DNA of 64,000 nt from Chlorobaculum limnaeum (GTDB taxonomy: Bacteria > Bacteroidota > Chlorobiia > Chlorobiales > Chlorobiaceae). A model generated the notes under the pieces. The model had not been told where the DNA came from, ran no database searches, and worked only from the letters and a program-made list of their open reading frames with translations. Made by a program: the position numbers and the translations under genes. Below are positions 39,576-50,375 of this stretch, in pieces (position 1 is the first letter of the stretch; every line of letters starts with the position of its first letter). The stretch is from the NCBI RefSeq assembly GCF_001747405.1, contig NZ_CP017305.1:2312001-2376000 (forward strand), written 5' to 3'.

Positions 39576-42158
39576 ATGCGATACCCAAAATCCAACAGAA
39601 AGCCGGAGGCTCCGGCTGAACATCCGCCCCTGCCGCTCGAAAACTGCCTGGCCAAATCCCGGAAAATCGATGCAGACCGCTCCGTTGCCGGGCGGACGGT
39701 GCTCGACCACTGCCGCATCGCGGGCGAGGTGGCGCGGGAGCTGATCGCCCGCTCGCCCGCCTATCTGCGCGAGCCGTTCTTCCCCGGCGGCTCCGCGCTC
39801 GTCGCCGCCTGCCACGACCTCGGCAAGGTCTGCCCGACATTCCAGAAAAAGATTCACAAGGCGATCGAGGGCGCTGACCCGACGATTCTCGATGCGTTGA
39901 ACGATGTCGATCCGGAGATCGAAAAAAATTGGGGCGGACACGCGGGCGTGAGTCAGTGCGCTCTCGAAGCGCTGGAGGCGGGCAAAACCGTCGCTTCGAT
40001 TGCCGGTTGCCACCACGGTTACGCGCCGAAACTCGGCGGACGAACTGCCGACGCGGAGTCGTTCGGCGGCGCGGCGTGGCAAGCCAAGCGGACGCGGCTT
40101 TTGGAATTGCTGATGGAGGCGACGGGCGAGCGGCTCCCGGAAATCCGCGATCCGCTGCACGCCCGCGTGCTGGCCGGACTGACCTCCGTGGCGGACTGGA
40201 TCGGCTCCGGCGCGATCTTCGACGACCCCGGCGAGCCGTGGCAAAACCGCGTCGCCGCCGCCGTCGATACCGCCGGATTCACGCCGCCGCTCCTCGCGCC
40301 GGGGCTGTCGTTCCGGGAGATTTTTCCCTTTGAGCCGAACCCGATCCAGCGCGGCCTGATCGAGGCGGCCTGTCGCCCCGGCCTCTATATCCTCGAAGCG
40401 CCGATGGGCATCGGCAAAACCGAGGCCGCGCTCTACGCCGCCTACGCCCTCGTGGCGGCTGGGAAGGCGCGCGGCATCTACTTCGCCTTGCCGACGCAAC
40501 TCACCTCCAACCGCATCCATGGGCGCGTCGAGCGCTTTCTCGACCGGGTGCTCGAACCGGACTCCCCCCACCGGGCCGCGCTGCTCCTGCACGGCAACGC
40601 CTGGCTGCAAGAGTTCGACCTCGGCGCGGAGGCCGCGCCCGGCTGCTCGTGGTTCAGCTCCGCCAAGCGCGGCCTGCTCGCCCCCTTCGCCGTCGGCACC
40701 GTCGATCAGGCGCTGATGGCCTCGATGAACGTCAAGCACGGCTTCGTGCGCGCCTTCGGCATCGCGGGCAAGGTGGTCATCCTCGACGAAGTGCACAGCT
40801 ACGACGCCTACACCGGCACCATTCTCGACCGGCTGGTGGGTGAGTTGCGGCGGCTGCGCTGCACGGTCATCATCCTCAGCGCCACCCTCACCGGCGAGCG
40901 GCGGAGCGCGTTGCTCGGCGCGGAACGAAGCGCGGAGGCGGCCTACCCGCTCATCACTGCCTTGCCTGCCGACGCGCCGGAGCCGCTGGAAATCGCGCCG
41001 GAAACGACCGCCGGAAACGAGGTCACCATCCGCCAGACGCTCGACTGCGAGGCGGCGCTCGACGAAGCGCTCGACCGCGCGGATTCCGGCCAGCAGGTGC
41101 TCTGGATCGAAAACACCGTCAGCGAGGCGCAGGAGGCGTACAAACTTCTCGCCGCCCGGTCGAGCGGCATGGCAATCGAGTGCGGCCTGCTCCATTCGCG
41201 CTTCATCCACCGCGACCGCGAGGCGCTCGAAGAAGAGTGGGTGACGCGCTACGGCGCTGATGGCGCGGCGGCGCGGCGCGAGCGGGGGCGGATTCTCGTC
41301 GGAACGCAGGTGCTGGAGCAGTCGCTCGACATCGACGCCGACTTCCTCGTCACGCGCCTCTGCCCGACCGACATGCTCTTGCAGCGCATCGGGCGGTTGT
41401 GGCGGCACAGCTTCCACCAGCGCCCCGCCGGAGCGAGGTGCGAGGCGTGGATCGTCAGCGCACAGTTCGAGGCCGCCGAGCAAAATCCCGGCGAGGCGTT
41501 CGGCAACAGCGCGAAGGTTTACAGCCCCTACGTACTCTTGCGGACGCTTCAGGCGTGGGCTGGCGTGGAAACGCTTTCGCTGCCGGGCGACATTCGCGGC
41601 CTGCTCGAACGCACCTACGAAGCGAAGCCGGAGAGCGAGGCGATGGCAAAGCACAAAGCCGAACTCCAGAAACGCAAGGAGATGCTCGAAACTTTCGCGC
41701 TTCAGAGCGTCTCGCCGGGCCTCGGCGCAAAGCCCGACACCAACGTCACCACCCGCTACAGCGACATCGACAGCGTCGAGCTGCTCCTGCTGCAATCGGT
41801 CAGCCACAACCACGCGGCGGGCGAAACCACGGTGACGCTGCTCGATGGCAAAACGCTCACCCTGCCGCACGACTTCGCCGCCGGGAAGAAGCGCGAGCAG
41901 CGTAAGCTCGCCGCTCGCCTCGCTACACAAACGCTTCAGGTCGCCGATTACGCCGCGCCCACGGCGCCCGGACGCAACACGCTCACGTGGCTCAAGCCCT
42001 ACTTCTACCTCGGCGACCCGTCGAAGAGCGAAAGCCTCCTGCGCGTCGCCATCGTGGGCGAGGGCGGCCAACTGAGGCTGCCCGGCGGCGGCGCGGCGTC
42101 CGGCGACTACGAACTGAGTTACAACCCGCGACTGGGCTACCAGTACAAAAAACGATAA
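39576..42158 (+). CDS. cas3: CRISPR-associated helicase-nuclease Cas3 (type I-E)
   Basis: Degrades DNA recruited by Cascade. HD nuclease domain in the first ~230 residues with H45, H80-D81 (CHDLGK), H122, H146-H147 and D207; superfamily 2 helicase after it with Walker A MGIGKTEAA (K281), DEVH at 404-407 and SAT at 435-437, then the C-terminal motif QRIGRLWRH. 860 residues. All catalytic residues I can check are present. First gene of the cas operon, 17 bp before cse1. Confidence 0.95.
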   Translation: MRYPKSNRKPEAPAEHPPLPLENCLAKSRKIDADRSVAGRTVLDHCRIAGEVARELIARSPAYLREPFFPGGSALVAACHDLGKVCPTFQKKIHKAIEGADPTILDALNDVDPEIEKNWGGHAGVSQCALEALEAGKTVASIAGCHHGYAPKLGGRTADAESFGGAAWQAKRTRLLELLMEATGERLPEIRDPLHARVLAGLTSVADWIGSGAIFDDPGEPWQNRVAAAVDTAGFTPPLLAPGLSFREIFPFEPNPIQRGLIEAACRPGLYILEAPMGIGKTEAALYAAYALVAAGKARGIYFALPTQLTSNRIHGRVERFLDRVLEPDSPHRAALLLHGNAWLQEFDLGAEAAPGCSWFSSAKRGLLAPFAVGTVDQALMASMNVKHGFVRAFGIAGKVVILDEVHSYDAYTGTILDRLVGELRRLRCTVIILSATLTGERRSALLGAERSAEAAYPLITALPADAPEPLEIAPETTAGNEVTIRQTLDCEAALDEALDRADSGQQVLWIENTVSEAQEAYKLLAARSSGMAIECGLLHSRFIHRDREALEEEWVTRYGADGAAARRERGRILVGTQVLEQSLDIDADFLVTRLCPTDMLLQRIGRLWRHSFHQRPAGARCEAWIVSAQFEAAEQNPGEAFGNSAKVYSPYVLLRTLQAWAGVETLSLPGDIRGLLERTYEAKPESEAMAKHKAELQKRKEMLETFALQSVSPGLGAKPDTNVTTRYSDIDSVELLLLQSVSHNHAAGETTVTLLDGKTLTLPHDFAAGKKREQRKLAARLATQTLQVADYAAPTAPGRNTLTWLKPYFYLGDPSKSESLLRVAIVGEGGQLRLPGGGAASGDYELSYNPRLGYQYKKR

Positions 42159-42175
42159 CCCTCATCAACACAGCC

Positions 42176-43744
42176 ATGCACAACCGTTTCAACCTGATCG
42201 ACGAACCGTGGATTCCCGCCGTCGGCAAAGGCTTCGCGAGCCTCGGCGACATTTTCAGCGATCCCGACATTCCCGCGCTCGGCGGCAACCCCGTGCAAAA
42301 GATCGCCCTCACCAAACTCCTGCTCGCCATCGGCCAGGCCGCCTGCACGCCGGAAAGCACGGAGGCGCTCGAACAGCTCGACGCCGAAACCTTCCGCCGC
42401 GCCTGCCGCGCCTATCTCGAAAAGTGGCGTGACCGCTTCTGGCTCTTCGGCGAACGGCCATTCTTGCAGATGCCCGCCGTCCGAAGGCTGATCGAGGAGC
42501 GCAAGCAGACCGAACTGAAAGCCGTGCCCGCCGCCCCGGCAAAGAAAAAAGAGGATGCCGAGAAAAAAGCGGAGGAAAACGCTCTGCCCCGCCCGATCGG
42601 CACGGGCTTCTTCCCCGACCTGCCCGCCGAGAACAACACGATTCTGAGCCAGTTCCAGTTGCTCGAAACCACCGAACCCGCCGAAATGGCGCTCTTCGTC
42701 GTCACGCTCATGAACTTCGCCTTTGGCGGAAAACGGATCGAAAAGAACCTCGCCCCGCTCACTCACGGATTCACGGGCAAATCGGTCTCAGCCAAGGCGG
42801 GGCCGAGCATCGGCAATTACGTTGGCTACCTGCACTCGTTCCTCACCGGCCCGACTCTGACGGACACCCTTCTGCTGAACCTGCTATCGCGGGAGCAGAT
42901 TCGCGACAACCCTTACTGGAAATCGGGACTCGGCAAGCCGCCGTGGGAGTTGATGCCGGAGGGTGAAGATTGCGTCGCCGCCAACCACCTGAAGAACTCC
43001 TACATGGCGACCCTGCTCTCGCTTTCGCGCTTCGTGCTGCTCGACGGCGAGGCCATCTACTACGTCGAAGGGCTGCAATACCCAAGCCACAAAGAGGGGT
43101 GGCGCGAACCGGGCATGACGATCAGCGATCAGGAAAAACAGTTGAAAGTGCTCTGGGTCGATCCCGACAAACGCCCGTGGCGCGAACTGCCATCGATGCT
43201 CGCCTTCCTCGAAAGCAGCGAAAACAAAGGATTCGAGTGCCAGTTCATCAGGTACGGACTCACGCGGGCAACGCGAAAGCACCCGCAGGTCGGCATCTGG
43301 TCGGGCGGCCTTCGCGTCAGCGCGAACTCAGGCGACCAGTCGGTCAAGCAGGACAACGATTTCGTCGAATCCCTTTTCCTGTTCCGATCCTCCGAAATCG
43401 GGAAACCTTGGTATGACCGGTTCAAGCTGGAAATGGAGTCGCTCGACCAGCTTTCCCGAAAAGTTTATGCGGCGACAAGGAGCTATTTCGACAAACAGAA
43501 CATGGACGGCGGCGACCTGGCCTCCAACGCCTCGGGTCTCTTCTGGCAGCTCTGCGAGCGGCGCTTCCCGGAGCTGGTCGATGCCTGCGGCGAACCAGAC
43601 AAGCTTCCCGCCATCCGCAAAGCGACCGCCGCGCTCGCCTTGCAGTCGTACGACACCTACTGCCCGAAAGAGACGGCGCGGCAGATCGATGCGTGGGCGG
43701 AGTGCCGTCCCAATTTTGCGAAGCATTTCATCAACAACCGATAA
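42176..43744 (+). CDS. cse1: Cascade large subunit Cse1 (Cas8e/CasA)
   Basis: Recognises the PAM and recruits Cas3. ATG 42176 gives MHNRFNLIDEPWIPAV, the family's N-terminal signature, and 522 residues. A Lys/Glu-rich stretch (AKKKEDAEKKAEEN, ~122-135) lies in the N-terminal domain near the L1 loop region; the C-terminal four-helix domain follows. It is 17 bp after cas3 and 11 bp before cse2. An open frame reaches further upstream into cas3 but is not used. Confidence 0.93.
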   Translation: MHNRFNLIDEPWIPAVGKGFASLGDIFSDPDIPALGGNPVQKIALTKLLLAIGQAACTPESTEALEQLDAETFRRACRAYLEKWRDRFWLFGERPFLQMPAVRRLIEERKQTELKAVPAAPAKKKEDAEKKAEENALPRPIGTGFFPDLPAENNTILSQFQLLETTEPAEMALFVVTLMNFAFGGKRIEKNLAPLTHGFTGKSVSAKAGPSIGNYVGYLHSFLTGPTLTDTLLLNLLSREQIRDNPYWKSGLGKPPWELMPEGEDCVAANHLKNSYMATLLSLSRFVLLDGEAIYYVEGLQYPSHKEGWREPGMTISDQEKQLKVLWVDPDKRPWRELPSMLAFLESSENKGFECQFIRYGLTRATRKHPQVGIWSGGLRVSANSGDQSVKQDNDFVESLFLFRSSEIGKPWYDRFKLEMESLDQLSRKVYAATRSYFDKQNMDGGDLASNASGLFWQLCERRFPELVDACGEPDKLPAIRKATAALALQSYDTYCPKETARQIDAWAECRPNFAKHFINNR

Positions 43745-43755
43745 AACCAACCGTT

Positions 43756-44292
43756 ATGGACAACGAAAAAGAGAAGAAAACCGGCAGGCCGGAAAAGTTC
43801 GTGGAGTTCGTGATCGGGCTGTGCCAGAAGGACAAGGGGGCCGCCGCCGCGCTTCGCCGCGCGGACAATCCGGCGACCGAGTACCAGAGCTGGGAGTACC
43901 TGGCGGGCTTCAACATCGACCTCGAAAACCCGTTCGAGCGCATTCCCTACGCCACCATCGCCGCCGCCATCTCGCGGGCCAAAGCGGAGCGCAACGGCTC
44001 GGCGGGCATCGGCAAGGCCATCGCCTATTGCTACGACGACAAGAGCGCCAGCGATCAGGCCAAAGCGCGGCTCCGGCGGCTGCTTGCCTGCGATTCGGTA
44101 AAGGAGGCTTGCCGGATTCTCCGCCCGCTCTTCAGTCTGATTGACTCGAAAGCTGCGGTAACGATTGATTACTCGCGGCTGCTCAAAGACCTTATCGACT
44201 TCGGATACGACAGTAACAAGGTCAAGACAAAGTGGGCAACCGACTTTTACCGCCACGCCGCCGAAAGCGCAACCGAGGAGGTGGAGGCATGA
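43756..44292 (+). CDS. cse2: Cascade small subunit Cse2 (Cas11/CasB)
   Basis: Helical protein that lines the belly of Cascade. 178 residues from ATG 43756 (MDNEKEKKTGRPEKFVEF). It has the conserved stretches ADNPATEYQSWEYLAG, RLRRLLACDSVKEACRILRPL and the final DFYRHAAES. The TGA overlaps the ATG of cas6e by 4 bp. It is divergent in sequence, as usual for Cse2, but position and length agree. Confidence 0.9.
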   Translation: MDNEKEKKTGRPEKFVEFVIGLCQKDKGAAAALRRADNPATEYQSWEYLAGFNIDLENPFERIPYATIAAAISRAKAERNGSAGIGKAIAYCYDDKSASDQAKARLRRLLACDSVKEACRILRPLFSLIDSKAAVTIDYSRLLKDLIDFGYDSNKVKTKWATDFYRHAAESATEEVEA

Positions 44293-44918
44293 TTGCAACC
44301 ATTCTCACCCTCAGCCGCAAGGACGTCAATGCCTTGCGCATTACGGACAGCTATTCGCTGCACCGCGTCGTTTACAGCCTGTTCGAGGATGTGCGCTCGG
44401 AGGCCGAAAAGCGGTCGAGTGTGCCCAGCGGCTTTCTCTTCGCCGACAAGGGGGGCGACGCCAAAGGGCGGCAAATCCTCATTTTGTCGGACAGACCGCC
44501 GCTGCCACCGGCGCACGGCGAACTGGTTTCCAGACCTGTGCCGGAGGAGTTTCTCCAGCACCGCTTCTACAAGTTCGAGGTGACGCTCAACCCCACGCGC
44601 AAGGAGAACAAAAGCGGCAGGCGCATCCCCATCAAAACCCGCGAGGAGGTGGCGGCGTGGTTTGGTAGCAAGTCGCTCGAGTCGTGGGGATTCAGCGTTG
44701 ACCCGGCGCGGCTCGACGTGCGGATGCTGCCGGTGATGCAGTTCAGCAAGCAAGGCGACCGGCCCGTCACCCACGGAGCGGCCAGCGTGTCGGGGATGCT
44801 GCGGGTCGAAAACCGCGACCTCTTTATCGAAAGCTTCAGAAAAGGCATTGGCCGGGGCCGGGCGTTCGGCTTCGGGCTGTTGCAGATCGAACCTCTCAAA
44901 GACGACTCAAACCACTAA
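44289..44918 (+). CDS. cas6e: CRISPR RNA endonuclease Cas6e (CasE)
   Basis: Cuts the pre-crRNA at the base of the repeat hairpin and keeps the 3' handle. 209 residues; His25 in DSYSLHRVVY matches the catalytic His of the family, and the Gly-rich loop GIGRGRAFGFGLLQIEPL is at the C-terminus. The ATG overlaps the cse2 stop (ATGA). Unlike E. coli, where casE follows casD, the gene lies here before cas7. Confidence 0.93.
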   Translation: MIATILTLSRKDVNALRITDSYSLHRVVYSLFEDVRSEAEKRSSVPSGFLFADKGGDAKGRQILILSDRPPLPPAHGELVSRPVPEEFLQHRFYKFEVTLNPTRKENKSGRRIPIKTREEVAAWFGSKSLESWGFSVDPARLDVRMLPVMQFSKQGDRPVTHGAASVSGMLRVENRDLFIESFRKGIGRGRAFGFGLLQIEPLKDDSNH

Positions 44919-44930
44919 AACCATACCACC

Positions 44931-45981
44931 ATGAACACCATGAACAACAATCCATTCAAGGGCCAGCGCATCGAGTTCCACATCCTCCAGCCCTTCCCGG
45001 TCACCTGCCTGAACCGCGACGACGTTGGCGCTCCGAAAACCGCTTCGGTCGGCGGCTCCACCCGCGCCCGCGTCAGCTCGCAGTGCTGGAAGCGACAAGT
45101 CCGTCTCGAAATGCACGAACTCGGCGTCCGGCTCGGCATACGCAGCAAAAAAATCGCCGATCATGTGGCCAAAGCCTGCGTCGCGCTCGGCGCGGATGAG
45201 GAAACGGCGAAAGCGTGCGGAGAGAAGATTGCCGCCGCGTTCAGCAACGACACGCTCTTCTTTTTCAGCGAATCGGAGGCAAACGCCTACGCACAGTACG
45301 CTGCCGAAAAGGAGTTCGACGCCGCGAAGCTCAACGACAAGGAGCTGGCGAAACTCTCGAAAAAAACCCTCGATCCCGCCAAGGACGGCCTCGACATCGC
45401 GCTGTTCGGGCGGATGGTGGCGCAGGCTGCCGAGCTGAACGTCGAAGCCGCCGCGTCGTTCGCCCATGCGATTTCGACCCACAAGGTGAGCAACGAGGTC
45501 GAGTTCTTCACGGCGCTCGACGACCTTGCCGAAGAGCCGGGTTCGGCGCACATGGGAAGCCTCGAATTCAACTCGGCGACCTACTACCGCTACGTTAGCC
45601 TCGACCTCGGCCAGCTCTCCGAGAACCTCGGCGGCGCGGGCATTGCCGACGCGGTGGAGGCGTTCACCAGGGCGCTCTTCGTGGCCGTGCCGAGCGCCCG
45701 GCAAACGACGCAATCGGGCGCGTCGCCGTGGGAGTTCGCGAAAATCTACATCCGCAAGGGCCAGCGCCTTCAGGTTCCGTTCGAGACCGCCGTCAAGGCT
45801 GAGAAGGGCGGATTCCTTGAGCCAAGCATTAAGGCGCTCTCCGATTATCTCGCCAAAAAAGGAGAAGCTCGCCGGATCGATGTTCGGCAAGGAAAAGGAG
45901 TTCACCTTTGGCGAGGACGAGTCGTTCAGCATCGACACGCTGGTCGGCGAATTGCGGAACTTTATCGAAGCGAAATCATGA
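44931..45981 (+). CDS. cas7: Cascade backbone subunit Cas7e (Cse4/CasC), with apparent frameshift
   Basis: Six copies form the crRNA-binding backbone. Start FKGQRIEFHILQPFPVTCLNRDDVG and HMGSLEFNSATYYRYVSLDL are typical. The frame is good to codon 308; then at an A6 run (45855-45860) it leaves the expected C-terminus, which lies in the next frame (KEKLAGSMFGKEKEFTFGED ... NFIEAKS) and ends with TGA 45979-45981. With one A removed the protein is 349 residues and its stop overlaps cas5 as ATGA. As written, frame 0 runs on without stop into cas5. A sequence error, a real mutation or slippage are all possible. Confidence 0.85.
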
Positions 45982-46694
45982 GCAATCCATTCATTCTTTT
46001 ATGGCTCGAAGCGCCCCTCCAGTCGTGGGGCGCTGACTCGCGCTTCGGGCGGCGCGACACGCTCGACTTCCCCACGAAGTCGGGCTTGCTCGGCCTCTTG
46101 TGCTGCGCCCTCGGCGCGGGCGGGGAGCAGCGGGAACTGCTCGCCGAAATGGCCCCGCTCCGCCAGACGGTGCTCGCGTTCCAGCGCGAACGCGGCGAGC
46201 GACCGCCGCTCTTGCGCGACTTCCAGATGGTCGGCAGCGGGTATGACGAGAAAGACAAGTGGGAAACGCTGCTGATTCCGAAAAAGCGCGATGGCGGCGG
46301 CGCGGTGGGCGGCGGCACGAAGATGACCTACCGCTACTATTTGCAGGAGGCGACCTTCGCCACCGCGCTGGAGGTTCCGGCGGCGCGGGCGGAAGAGTTT
46401 GCCGAAGCGCTCAAGGCTCCCGTGTGGGACATCTATTTCGGACGGAAGTGCTGCGCGCCGACCGATCTGGTGTTCCGAGGCGAATTCGACTCGGAGGCGG
46501 CGGCGCTCGAAGCGGCCTCTTCAATCGCCAAAGAGAAGTCGCTCCGGGAGGCATTCCGCGTTCGCGACTACGCTCCGGGCGACCAAAGCGAGGGGGAGGT
46601 CGTGGCGCTGAACGATGTGCCGGTGCAGTTCGGCACGCGAAAGAAGTACCGTGAACGCAGAGTAACCATAATCCACTACAGCGATGAAGAGTAA
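45978..46694 (+). CDS. cas5: Cascade subunit Cas5e (CasD)
   Basis: Caps the 5' handle of the crRNA. ATG 45978 gives MSNPFILLWLEAPLQSWGAD, the standard Cas5e start, 238 residues, with a middle QMVGSGYDEKD and C-terminal DVPVQFGTRKKYRERRV. It overlaps the corrected cas7 stop by 4 bp and cas1 by 11 bp. Because of the cas7 frameshift its frame is also reachable by translation from the cas7 start, which would give a 587-residue fusion. Confidence 0.92.
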   Translation: MSNPFILLWLEAPLQSWGADSRFGRRDTLDFPTKSGLLGLLCCALGAGGEQRELLAEMAPLRQTVLAFQRERGERPPLLRDFQMVGSGYDEKDKWETLLIPKKRDGGGAVGGGTKMTYRYYLQEATFATALEVPAARAEEFAEALKAPVWDIYFGRKCCAPTDLVFRGEFDSEAAALEAASSIAKEKSLREAFRVRDYAPGDQSEGEVVALNDVPVQFGTRKKYRERRVTIIHYSDEE

Positions 46695-47574
46695 CGCACT
46701 CGGCAACGAAGGGAATCCGGCGCGGCTTCTGATAAAAGTGACGCGGGATACCCTGCCGCAGGTCAAGGAAAAGTATCCGTTTCTGTATCTTGAGAAGGGC
46801 CGGATGGAGATCGACGACAGCAGCATCAAGTGGATCGATTGCGACTGCAACGTCGTGCGCCTGCCGGTCGCCATGCTGAACTGCATTCTGCTCGGCCCCG
46901 GCACGACGGTGACGCACGAGGCGGTCAAGGTGATGGCTGCCGCCAATTGCGGCATCTGCTGGGTGGGCGACGACAGTTTGATGTTTTACGCCAGCGGGCA
47001 GACGCCGACCAGCAACACGCGGAACATGACGCATCAGATGAAGCTCGCGGCCAATCCGGCAAAGTCTCTCGAAGTGGCGCGGCAGCTCTTCGCGTACCGC
47101 TTTCCGGACGCGAATCTGGAAACAAAGACGCTGCCGCAGATGATGGGCATGGAGGGTTTGCGGGTGCGGAAGTTTTACGAGGAGATGGCCGTGAAGTACA
47201 AGGTGGGCTGGAAAGGGCGGCGGTTCGAGCCGGGAAATTTCGAGATGAGCGACACGACGAACAAGATTCTCACGGCGGCAAACGCGGCGTTGTACAGCAT
47301 CATCATGTCGGCGGCGCACAGCATGGGCTATTCGCCGCACATCGGGTTCATTCACTCCGGCAGTCCGCTGCCGTTCATTTACGACCTGGCCGATCTTTAC
47401 AAGCAGCAGGTCTCCATCGATCTGGCTTTTGCCATGACTGCCGAGATGGCCGGATATTACGACCGGCACAAGATCGCCGCGGAGTTCCGGAAGCGCGTCA
47501 TCGAAATCGACCTGCTGGGCAAAATCGGCCCTGACATCGAAACCATTCTGGGGAAAAAGCAATGCTTGTCGTAG
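46684..47574 (+). CDS. cas1: CRISPR adaptation integrase Cas1 (type I-E)
   Basis: Integrates new spacers together with Cas2. 296 residues; metal ligands E157 (MGMEGLRVRKFYEEM), H224 (GFIHSGSPLPFIYDLADLYK, stated in two parts here because of length) and D237 fit the family. No truncation. It overlaps cas5 by 11 bp and cas2 by 13 bp. Confidence 0.95.
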   Translation: MKSNALGNEGNPARLLIKVTRDTLPQVKEKYPFLYLEKGRMEIDDSSIKWIDCDCNVVRLPVAMLNCILLGPGTTVTHEAVKVMAAANCGICWVGDDSLMFYASGQTPTSNTRNMTHQMKLAANPAKSLEVARQLFAYRFPDANLETKTLPQMMGMEGLRVRKFYEEMAVKYKVGWKGRRFEPGNFEMSDTTNKILTAANAALYSIIMSAAHSMGYSPHIGFIHSGSPLPFIYDLADLYKQQVSIDLAFAMTAEMAGYYDRHKIAAEFRKRVIEIDLLGKIGPDIETILGKKQCLS

Positions 47575-47897
47575 TCGCCAATGACCTGCCCCCGGCGGTG
47601 AGAGGCCGGATGAAGCTCTGGTTCATCGAACCCAGGGCGAACGTTTTTGTGTCGGGCGTGCGGGACAGCCTGGCCAGAAAGGTGGTGGACTATCTGCACG
47701 AGCACTGCCCGCCGAAAAGCGGCCTGATGATTTTCAACAGCTCGAACACGTGCCCCGGCTACGAGATTTTCGGCTTGGGCGACACGCGCAAAGAGATCAC
47801 GGAAATCTCGGGCCTGCCGCTCGTGATCGAAAAATCCGCCGAACCGCCACCAGATAACCCAAACAGCTTGACGCCAGACGTCCCGAAACCCCAGTAA
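47562..47897 (+). CDS. cas2: CRISPR adaptation protein Cas2 (type I-E), with C-terminal tail
   Basis: Partner of Cas1. The ferredoxin-like core MLVVVANDLPPAVRGRMKLW ... GLPLVIEK covers ~92 residues. A Pro/Asp/Asn-rich tail of about 19 residues (EPPPDNPNSLTPDVPKPQ) follows; E. coli Cas2 is near 94 residues. The tail codons and the next 8 bp fill the place where a leader would be expected before the first repeat. Confidence 0.92.
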   Translation: MLVVVANDLPPAVRGRMKLWFIEPRANVFVSGVRDSLARKVVDYLHEHCPPKSGLMIFNSSNTCPGYEIFGLGDTRKEITEISGLPLVIEKSAEPPPDNPNSLTPDVPKPQ

Positions 47898-47905
47898 AAC
47901 CCAGT

Positions 47906-50375
47906 GTCTTCCCCACGCCCGTGGGGGTGTTTCCCGCTCGCGGCTGATGGTGAGTTTTTGCTGTGCGTCTTCCCCACGCCCGTGGGGGTGTTTCCGTCAG
48001 GATCGAGCACGTTGGTACTGGCATAAGGTCTTCCCCACGCCCGTGGGGGTGTTTCCTACATCGCGCACGGAAAAAACATCACCTGGGAGTCTTCCCCACG
48101 CCCGTGGGGGTGTTTCTTTTCAAGTGTGTACAAATTTAGGGCTACATACGTCTTCCCCACGCCCGTGGGGGTGTTTCTACATATTCATGTAACTACATAA
48201 CAGCACAACTGGTCTTCCCCACGCCCGTGGGGGTGTTTCTCGAAGAGGTTCCTTTACATTGGAGAATTCCACGTCTTCCCCACGCCCGTGGGGGTGTTTC
48301 CCTTTTTCATTGACTACTTGCAAGTTTATCGAGGTCTTCCCCACGCCCGTGGGGGTGTTTCTAGCTGAAAAATCGGTCAAAAACGCTTTCGAGGGTCTTC
48401 CCCACGCCCGTGGGGGTGTTTCTATCGCGTTCCGTAATACGGGATTACAGGGATGGTCTTCCCCACGCCCGTGGGGGTGTTTCCACATTAAAGCGATCAT
48501 ACGCCGCGCGACTTGTGTCTTCCCCACGCCCGTGGGGGTGTTTCCCCGTCCATGTGCCTGGATATCTTGCATATCCCGTCTTCCCCACGCCCGTGGGGGT
48601 GTTTCCCGGTCAAACGGCGGCTGCTTCGGCATACTGATGTCTTCCCCACGCCCGTGGGGGTGTTTCTTTCCGGCATCTCGTCCGCGACGAGCGCCAGCTG
48701 TCTTCCCCACGCCCGTGGGGGTGTTTCCCCGGCCTTGCTCCACTTCGTGAAGTCCGTCGCGTCTTCCCCACGCCCGTGGGGGTGTTTCTATTTATCTATA
48801 TTTTCGTACCATTGCCGTTCTGTCTTCCCCACGCCCGTGGGGGTGTTTCTGGCTTAACGGAATTATTAAAGACGTTTGCCAGGTCTTCCCCACGCCCGTG
48901 GGGGTGTTTCCGGCGTCCAAGAAGGAAACGACGAAAGCGTACTGTCTTCCCCACGCCCGTGGGGGTGTTTCCTTACACGATCACATATAAGCATTATAAA
49001 AAAAGTCTTCCCCACGCCCGTGGGGGTGTTTCCTTCAGAAGCGAATTACCCGATCAGGAAAGTTTGTCTTCCCCACGCCCGTGGGGGTGTTTCCCCCGCG
49101 CTGGGCGGGGCTGGTGGGCTGATTGCGTCTTCCCCACGCCCGTGGGGGTGTTTCTTCTTCAGAGCCAGAAGATTTCTGCTTCTACGAGTCTTCCCCACGC
49201 CCGTGGGGGTGTTTCTATTTCGACAAATTGCTTGCTATTGATGATGAAGTCTTCCCCACGCCCGTGGGGGTGTTTCTTTTGTGCTGCGCGCGGCGTTCCT
49301 GACAACCCCGTCTTCCCCACGCCCGTGGGGGTGTTTCTCGGTCAGGTGCTGATCGACCATATCCGTGACGGTCTTCCCCACGCCCGTGGGGGTGTTTCCT
49401 GGCGAGCGCATCGTGTTGCCGATTTCGGACGAGTCTTCCCCACGCCCGTGGGGGTGTTTCCTCAGCAAGCTCGCGCGTCGCTTCATCATGGTCGTCTGCC
49501 CCACGCCCGTGGGGGTGTTTCTGGCTTTTACGATTTGTCGAACGGTTTGGGCACGTCTTCCCCACGCCCGTGGGGGTGTTTCCTCCACCGATGACAAAAG
49601 AAGTTCCTCAAGTCAGTCTTCCCCACGCCCGTGGGGGTGTTTCCAGAATGCACCCCTCGACGATCCGTAATCGTCAGTCTTCCCCACGCCCGTGGGGGTG
49701 TTTCCTTTGCTTTTTTACGGTTTTCCTCCCACTGGTGGTCTTCCCCACGCCCGTGGGGGTGTTTCTCCGTCAAAGAACGGCGACATCTATGTGATCTCGT
49801 CTTCCCCACGCCCGTGGGGGTGTTTCCTTTGACTGTGGACTCATAGGAAGCGTACCGGTGTCTTCCCCACGCCCGTGGGGGTGTTTCCGAGATGGGTACG
49901 TCGCCCTATACGGTCGATGAGTCTTCCCCACGCCCGTGGGGGTGTTTCCATCAAAGGAGAGTCATCATGACAAGCGAAGCAGTCTTCCCCACGCCCGTGG
50001 GGGTGTTTCTTTAAGCTCCTTTTTCTTATGCTGTTCCAGACTGTCTTCCCCACGCCCGTGGGGGTGTTTCCTCGCCCACATGACCGTAACCGCCAGAACC
50101 ATCGTCTTCCCCACGCCCGTGGGGGTGTTTCCGGAGATGGCATCATGACAAACGCAGAAAAACTGTCTTCCCCACGCCCGTGGGGGTGTTTCCGGGAGTT
50201 CCGACATACGTCGCTGCCGCCGACAGTCTTCCCCACGCCCGTGGGGGTGTGCGTTTTATTTCAGTCACCAGCACCGGCTCCGTCTCGTCTTCCCCACGCC
50301 CGTGGGGGTGTGCGCTCAGGCCAATAATAACTGAAACGGGTATCGCGGTCTTCCCCACGCCCGTGGGGGTGTGCG
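47906..50375 (+). CRISPR. type I-E CRISPR array, 41 repeats and 40 spacers
   Basis: Core repeat of 28 bases begins GTCTTCCCCACG and ends CGTGGGGGTGTTTC; it forms a stem CCCCAC/GTGGGG with a GCCC loop. The period is 61 bases, with two 62-base exceptions (spacers before 48212 and 49433). The first base after the core is C in 24 and T in 17 of 41 copies, so the functional repeat is probably 29 bases (ending in Y) with 32-base spacers, canonical for I-E. Repeats at 50226, 50287 and 50348 end in GTGTGCG instead of GTGTTTC; the one at 49494 has GTCTGCC. All spacers look different. Transcription is probably left to right, as in E. coli by repeat orientation. Confidence 0.98.

Follow-up and report, generated by a model that had tools for sequence, protein, structure and literature searches.

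The cas7–cas5 junction in an ordinary type I-E operon

Does the type I-E CRISPR operon of Chlorobaculum limnaeum encode a fused Cas7–Cas5 protein, or does its record carry one adenine too many? We analyzed a 64,000-nt window of the genome (contig NZ_CP017305.1, positions 2,312,001 to 2,376,000), in which cas7 reads into cas5 through a run of six A. The question bears mainly on annotation: taken at face value, the record gives C. limnaeum, which serves as a model for green sulfur bacteria, a type I-E interference complex that looks broken or fused. Were the insertion real, this strain would amount to a natural knock-out of Cascade that retains intact adaptation genes. A sequence-only reading had proposed a sequencing error, a recent mutation or transcript slippage without ranking them. 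We infer, with moderate confidence, that the surplus A most likely stems from a miscounted homopolymer in a 454 assembly.

Apart from the junction, the operon is intact. All features described here lie on the forward strand. The genes comprise cas3 (39576..42158; TIGR01587 and TIGR01596, models of the Cas3 core and HD domain), cas8e (cse1/casA; 41987..43744; TIGR02547, 6.5e-90), with its true start inside the open reading frame (ORF) just before the match beginning at residue 69, cse2 (casB; 43693..44292; TIGR02548), cas6e (casE; 44232..44918; TIGR01907), cas1e (46684..47574; TIGR03638, 9.1e-105) and cas2e (47562..47897; TIGR01873, 4.3e-39). NCBIfam matches exceeded the curated cut-off for cas8e, cse2, cas7, cas6e, cas5, cas1e, cas2e and the Cas3 core and HD models. 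With the order cas3-cas8e-cse2-cas6e-cas7-cas5-cas1-cas2 and an adjacent array, the type I-E gene set is complete; by its features other than the junction, the operon remains type I-E, and the locus is an ordinary system of this type, not a new one. In a complete genome of another Chlorobaculum (G017), cas3 is frameshifted relative to both the window and C. tepidum (L095 ~1893; G017:C1 near 1847893), and that genome yielded more frame breaks than the C. limnaeum genome.

The CRISPR array (47906..50375) comprises 41 repeats, nearly identical to one another, and 40 spacers that all differ. Its first repeat begins 8 bases past the cas2 stop (47850-47930), and the stretch preceding it is kept in four relatives; the leader is therefore likely to overlap with the cas2 3' end. 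The last three repeats (50226-50375), at the end distal to cas2, are variants that end in GTGTGCG rather than GTGTTTC. Self-targeting spacers were detected neither in 864 kb of the C. limnaeum genome at up to 4 mismatches nor when all spacers were searched against the whole genome, a search whose sensitivity to 33-base matches was not calibrated. Phage records yielded no protospacers for the first 14 spacers.

A single open frame spans cas7 and cas5

Direct reading and ORF translation of 44931-46694 gave a single open frame of 587 codons with an ATG start, a second in-frame ATG at 44940 and no internal stop. Its first 310 residues (44931..45860) form the body of Cas7e (casC/cse4), matched by TIGR01869 from NCBIfam (residues 12-310, 1.1e-112) and PF09344, Cas_CT1975, from Pfam (residues 14-309, 2.1e-95). 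The frame breaks at the A6 run (45855..45860), located by direct reading and by alignment with eight relatives, in the context CTC GCC AAA AAA GGA. One base forward, 45862..45981 holds the normal C-terminal tail of Cas7e, 39 codons plus TGA that are untranslated in the written frame; this forward frame encodes EKLAGSMFGKEKEFTFGEDESFSIDTLVGELRNFIEAKS and then reaches the TGA of an ATGA overlap with cas5. A full-length Cas7e is thus not present in the record as written, its last 40 residues, including an invariant FGK, being out of frame. In the written frame, the corresponding stretch (45861..45977) would become the linker of the hypothetical fusion, about 40 out-of-frame residues without a family match in NCBIfam and Pfam profile searches.

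The downstream gene, cas5e (casD; 45978..46694), is intact and 85-89% identical to those of relatives. Its ATG shares the sequence ATGA with the cas7 stop and is in frame with the broken cas7, such that TIGR01868 (residues 354-581, 6.3e-80) and Cas_Cas5d from Pfam (residues 354-578) match within the same 587-residue frame. Direct reading, profile matches and two-frame alignment thus bear out the sequence-only reading in its description of the A6 frame break, forward-frame tail, ATGA overlap and 587-residue frame. Its remark that the run is not in the phase of a classic A AAA AAG −1 site was also right, and frame restoration moreover needs a shift of +1 (or −2), not −1. Its statement that a Cas7–Cas5 fusion is encoded holds for the letters of the record; as a functional biological product, such a fusion is unlikely.

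Relatives read the same stretch one base shorter

The intact Cas7 of C. tepidum (G003) and that of another Chlorobaculum aligned across the break in two frames, with 93-94% identity in the first and 83-93% in the forward frame; the match is therefore not due to chance. The cas7 body is 93-97% identical to most Chlorobaculum cas7 genes. In eight aligned Chlorobaculum loci, the same stretch is one base shorter, reading GCC or ACC followed by AAAAAGGAG or, in three of the eight, ACA AAA AAG GAG; another locus (L009) has CGC AAA AAA GAG. Among 88 loci, a set in which some are represented twice, cas7 has a stop before cas5 in 87; the remaining one runs off its contig, and none continues into cas5. 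In one of the 87, from an Endozoicomonas metagenome-assembled genome (L059), cas7 stops about 20 residues early after 320 matched codons, possibly a separate truncation or an assembly error. The exact A6 context was absent from the other 20 of 21 Chlorobaculum genomes compared, and the exact break site had no match among viral contigs. In the C. limnaeum genome, cas7e is present as a single copy, with no second, compensating gene.

The displaced tail is conserved and undecayed

An alignment of 23 sequences identified F319, G320, K321 and L338 as invariant tail residues and K311, E312, G316, S317 and L318 as near-invariant ones. In the Cas7 of a relative as modelled by AlphaFold (pLDDT averaging only 61.6 overall, yet 82-88 across residues 301-350), the break cuts a helix at residues 297-319 and removes a strand (321-327) and a further helix (335-349). 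The 314-residue type I-E Cas7 of known structure in 8ji9 aligns through the same tail. Loss of the tail would be expected to damage Cas7.

The forward-frame tail shows no sign of decay. It differs from that of the nearest relative (L003) in five codons, two synonymous and three nonsynonymous, and each of the three replaced residues (T, E and S) is found at the corresponding position of other intact Cas7e proteins. Taken together, the undecayed tail, the intact cas genes and the near-identical repeats of the array imply that the insertion, unless an artefact, is very recent.

Error background of the deposited genome

The genome of C. limnaeum DSM 1677T (CP017305; 2,797,276 bp) was generated from 454 GS FLX+ reads at a coverage above 60x and assembled with Newbler and phred/phrap/consed, with Sanger sequencing for gap closure only; its announcement makes no mention of Illumina polishing (PMC5473272). 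Run-length errors of 454 data are biased to A/T and rise with run length, with ~90% located in runs of at least five (PMC3277595, PMC3045373).

For comparison, we scanned 864 kb of C. limnaeum for frame breaks with C. tepidum (G003) ORFs; inspection of the DNA alignments left two further conserved genes with a single-base break. One break, in a gene named mutS2 from its sequence (near G000:C1 361772; L205 ~1772), is the loss of one base compared with C. tepidum, with GG where GGG keeps the frame. The other, in a cobaltochelatase ATPase assigned to TIGR02442 in C. tepidum, is a one-base insertion just before the YVDEVNLL motif (near G000:C1 2079485; L115 ~7485) and, if real, would be a cobalamin-pathway lesion. 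The two breaks have the appearance of run-length changes and could also be real mutations. Break density amounted to three in ~430 kb of compared ORF sequence or, without cas7, ~0.26 expected per 64 kb, rough figures given the many spurious antisense ORFs among those compared. Nonsense mutations were also considered as a gauge of real gene decay and rejected, as most hits were to such spurious antisense ORFs.

Competing explanations for the extra base

On the favored reading, an over-call, the run in the cell is probably one base shorter than in the record, and the gene would encode a normal Cas7e of ~349 residues with an ATGA overlap with cas5, within an ordinary type I-E operon. The 454/Newbler origin of the record, with its typical miscounts of A/T runs, speaks for this, as do the nature of the change (a homopolymer indel of one base that no compared relative shares), the tail residues T, E and S shared with intact proteins, the integrity of the other cas genes, and the mutS2 and cobaltochelatase breaks, which are consistent with further run-length errors. 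Against it stand the coverage, which removes most short-run errors, the low density of frame breaks, and two longer A7 runs of the same gene, at 45147 and 45360, that are both in frame; the mutS2 and cobaltochelatase breaks may themselves be real, and genuine insertions likewise arise at poly-A runs. A less probable but serious alternative is that strain DSM 1677 truly gained the base, very recently, either in nature or in culture. Cas7 would then lose its C-terminal 40 residues (the helix end, strand, second helix and FGK) and be joined to Cas5. Ribosomes would miss the cas7 TGA, stop-start coupling at ATGA would be lost, and cas5, before whose ATG our reading of the sequence found no clear Shine-Dalgarno motif, would be made mainly as the fusion. 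Cascade contains about six Cas7 subunits per Cas5; with Cas7 as a fusion, its six-subunit backbone would not assemble normally, and I-E interference would fail while Cas1–Cas2 stayed intact. The recent mutation named by the sequence-only reading fits the undecayed tail and operon, which are what a recent event would leave. Consistent with a genuine lesion, cas7e is single with nothing to replace it, and the lost tail holds invariant residues and the modelled strand and helix (321-327 and 335-349); C. limnaeum possesses a type III-A system as well (PMC13148439), so the loss could be tolerated. Yet the insertion is located exactly where 454 sequencing errs, and the spacer searches detected no self-targeting spacer that would reveal a loss of interference, itself weak evidence.

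The explanations that give the fused frame a function fare worse. If the A6 run is real, slippage of RNA polymerase or the ribosome might yield both normal Cas7 and a Cas7–Cas5 fusion, thereby setting the ratio of subunits or providing a contingency switch, a proposal that we consider highly improbable. The fusion frame is open, and three close relatives carry an in-phase A AAA AAG in cas7 with a −1 frame open into cas5, such that a −1 shift there would produce the same fusion. These sites (L006, L005/L053 and L003/L013) lie 123 nt before the stop, and the motif occurs genome-wide at chance level. However, bacterial slippage has been described for runs of nine A or T (reviewed in PMC5009743), longer than the six A found here; the C. 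limnaeum run is out of phase (GCC AAA AAA GGA) and needs a +1 shift; and A AAA AAG, at ~0.055 per kb genome-wide, is not conserved beyond the three close relatives. Of genes with at least 300 codons, 12-18% have a −1 frame open for at least 354 nt upstream of the stop, and the long open −1 frame over the end of the relatives' cas7 was rejected as a coding sign, being ordinary in these genomes. Stimulatory RNA structure was not detected: the stability of the downstream RNA did not exceed that of shuffled sequences (z 0.41 to −0.58). With the wrong phase, an unconserved site and no such structure, programmed frameshifting was rejected; the transcript slippage option of the sequence-only reading is unsupported. 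A broader version, in which a real A run at the 3' end of cas7 serves as a contingency or slippage switch between normal and fused Cas7–Cas5 Cascade in Chlorobaculum, appears very improbable. We give the least credence of all to a selected, functional Cas7–Cas5 fusion subunit. Its frame is indeed open through an intact Cas5, but no relative has such a protein, its linker is out-of-frame sequence without a family match, Cascade stoichiometry calls for about six Cas7 per Cas5, and the old tail is still intact.

Comparison with known systems

As an over-call, the C. limnaeum site resembles published 454 over-calls of bacterial and metagenome assemblies (PMC3277595, PMC3045373), with which it shares a single-base indel in an A run of five or six within an otherwise undecayed gene; in the C. 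limnaeum case, the over-call is a probable one. With recoding genes such as dnaX, where an A AAA AAG −1 frameshift or slippage on nine A operates (PMC5009743 for slippage), it has in common a run of A, then G, ahead of another open frame, whereas the wrong phase, the shorter run, the need for +1, the lack of a stimulatory structure and the absence of conservation set it apart. The closest likeness is to the type I-E system of C. thiosulfatiphilum DSM 249 (L053), whose Cas7 is 93% identical and which has the same ATGA cas7–cas5 overlap, the repeat GTCTTCCCCACGCCCGTGGGGGTGTTTC and a first repeat just past cas2. Relative to the intact Cas7 proteins of its Chlorobaculum relatives, ~347-355 residues long, C. 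limnaeum has one extra base in the cas7 run.
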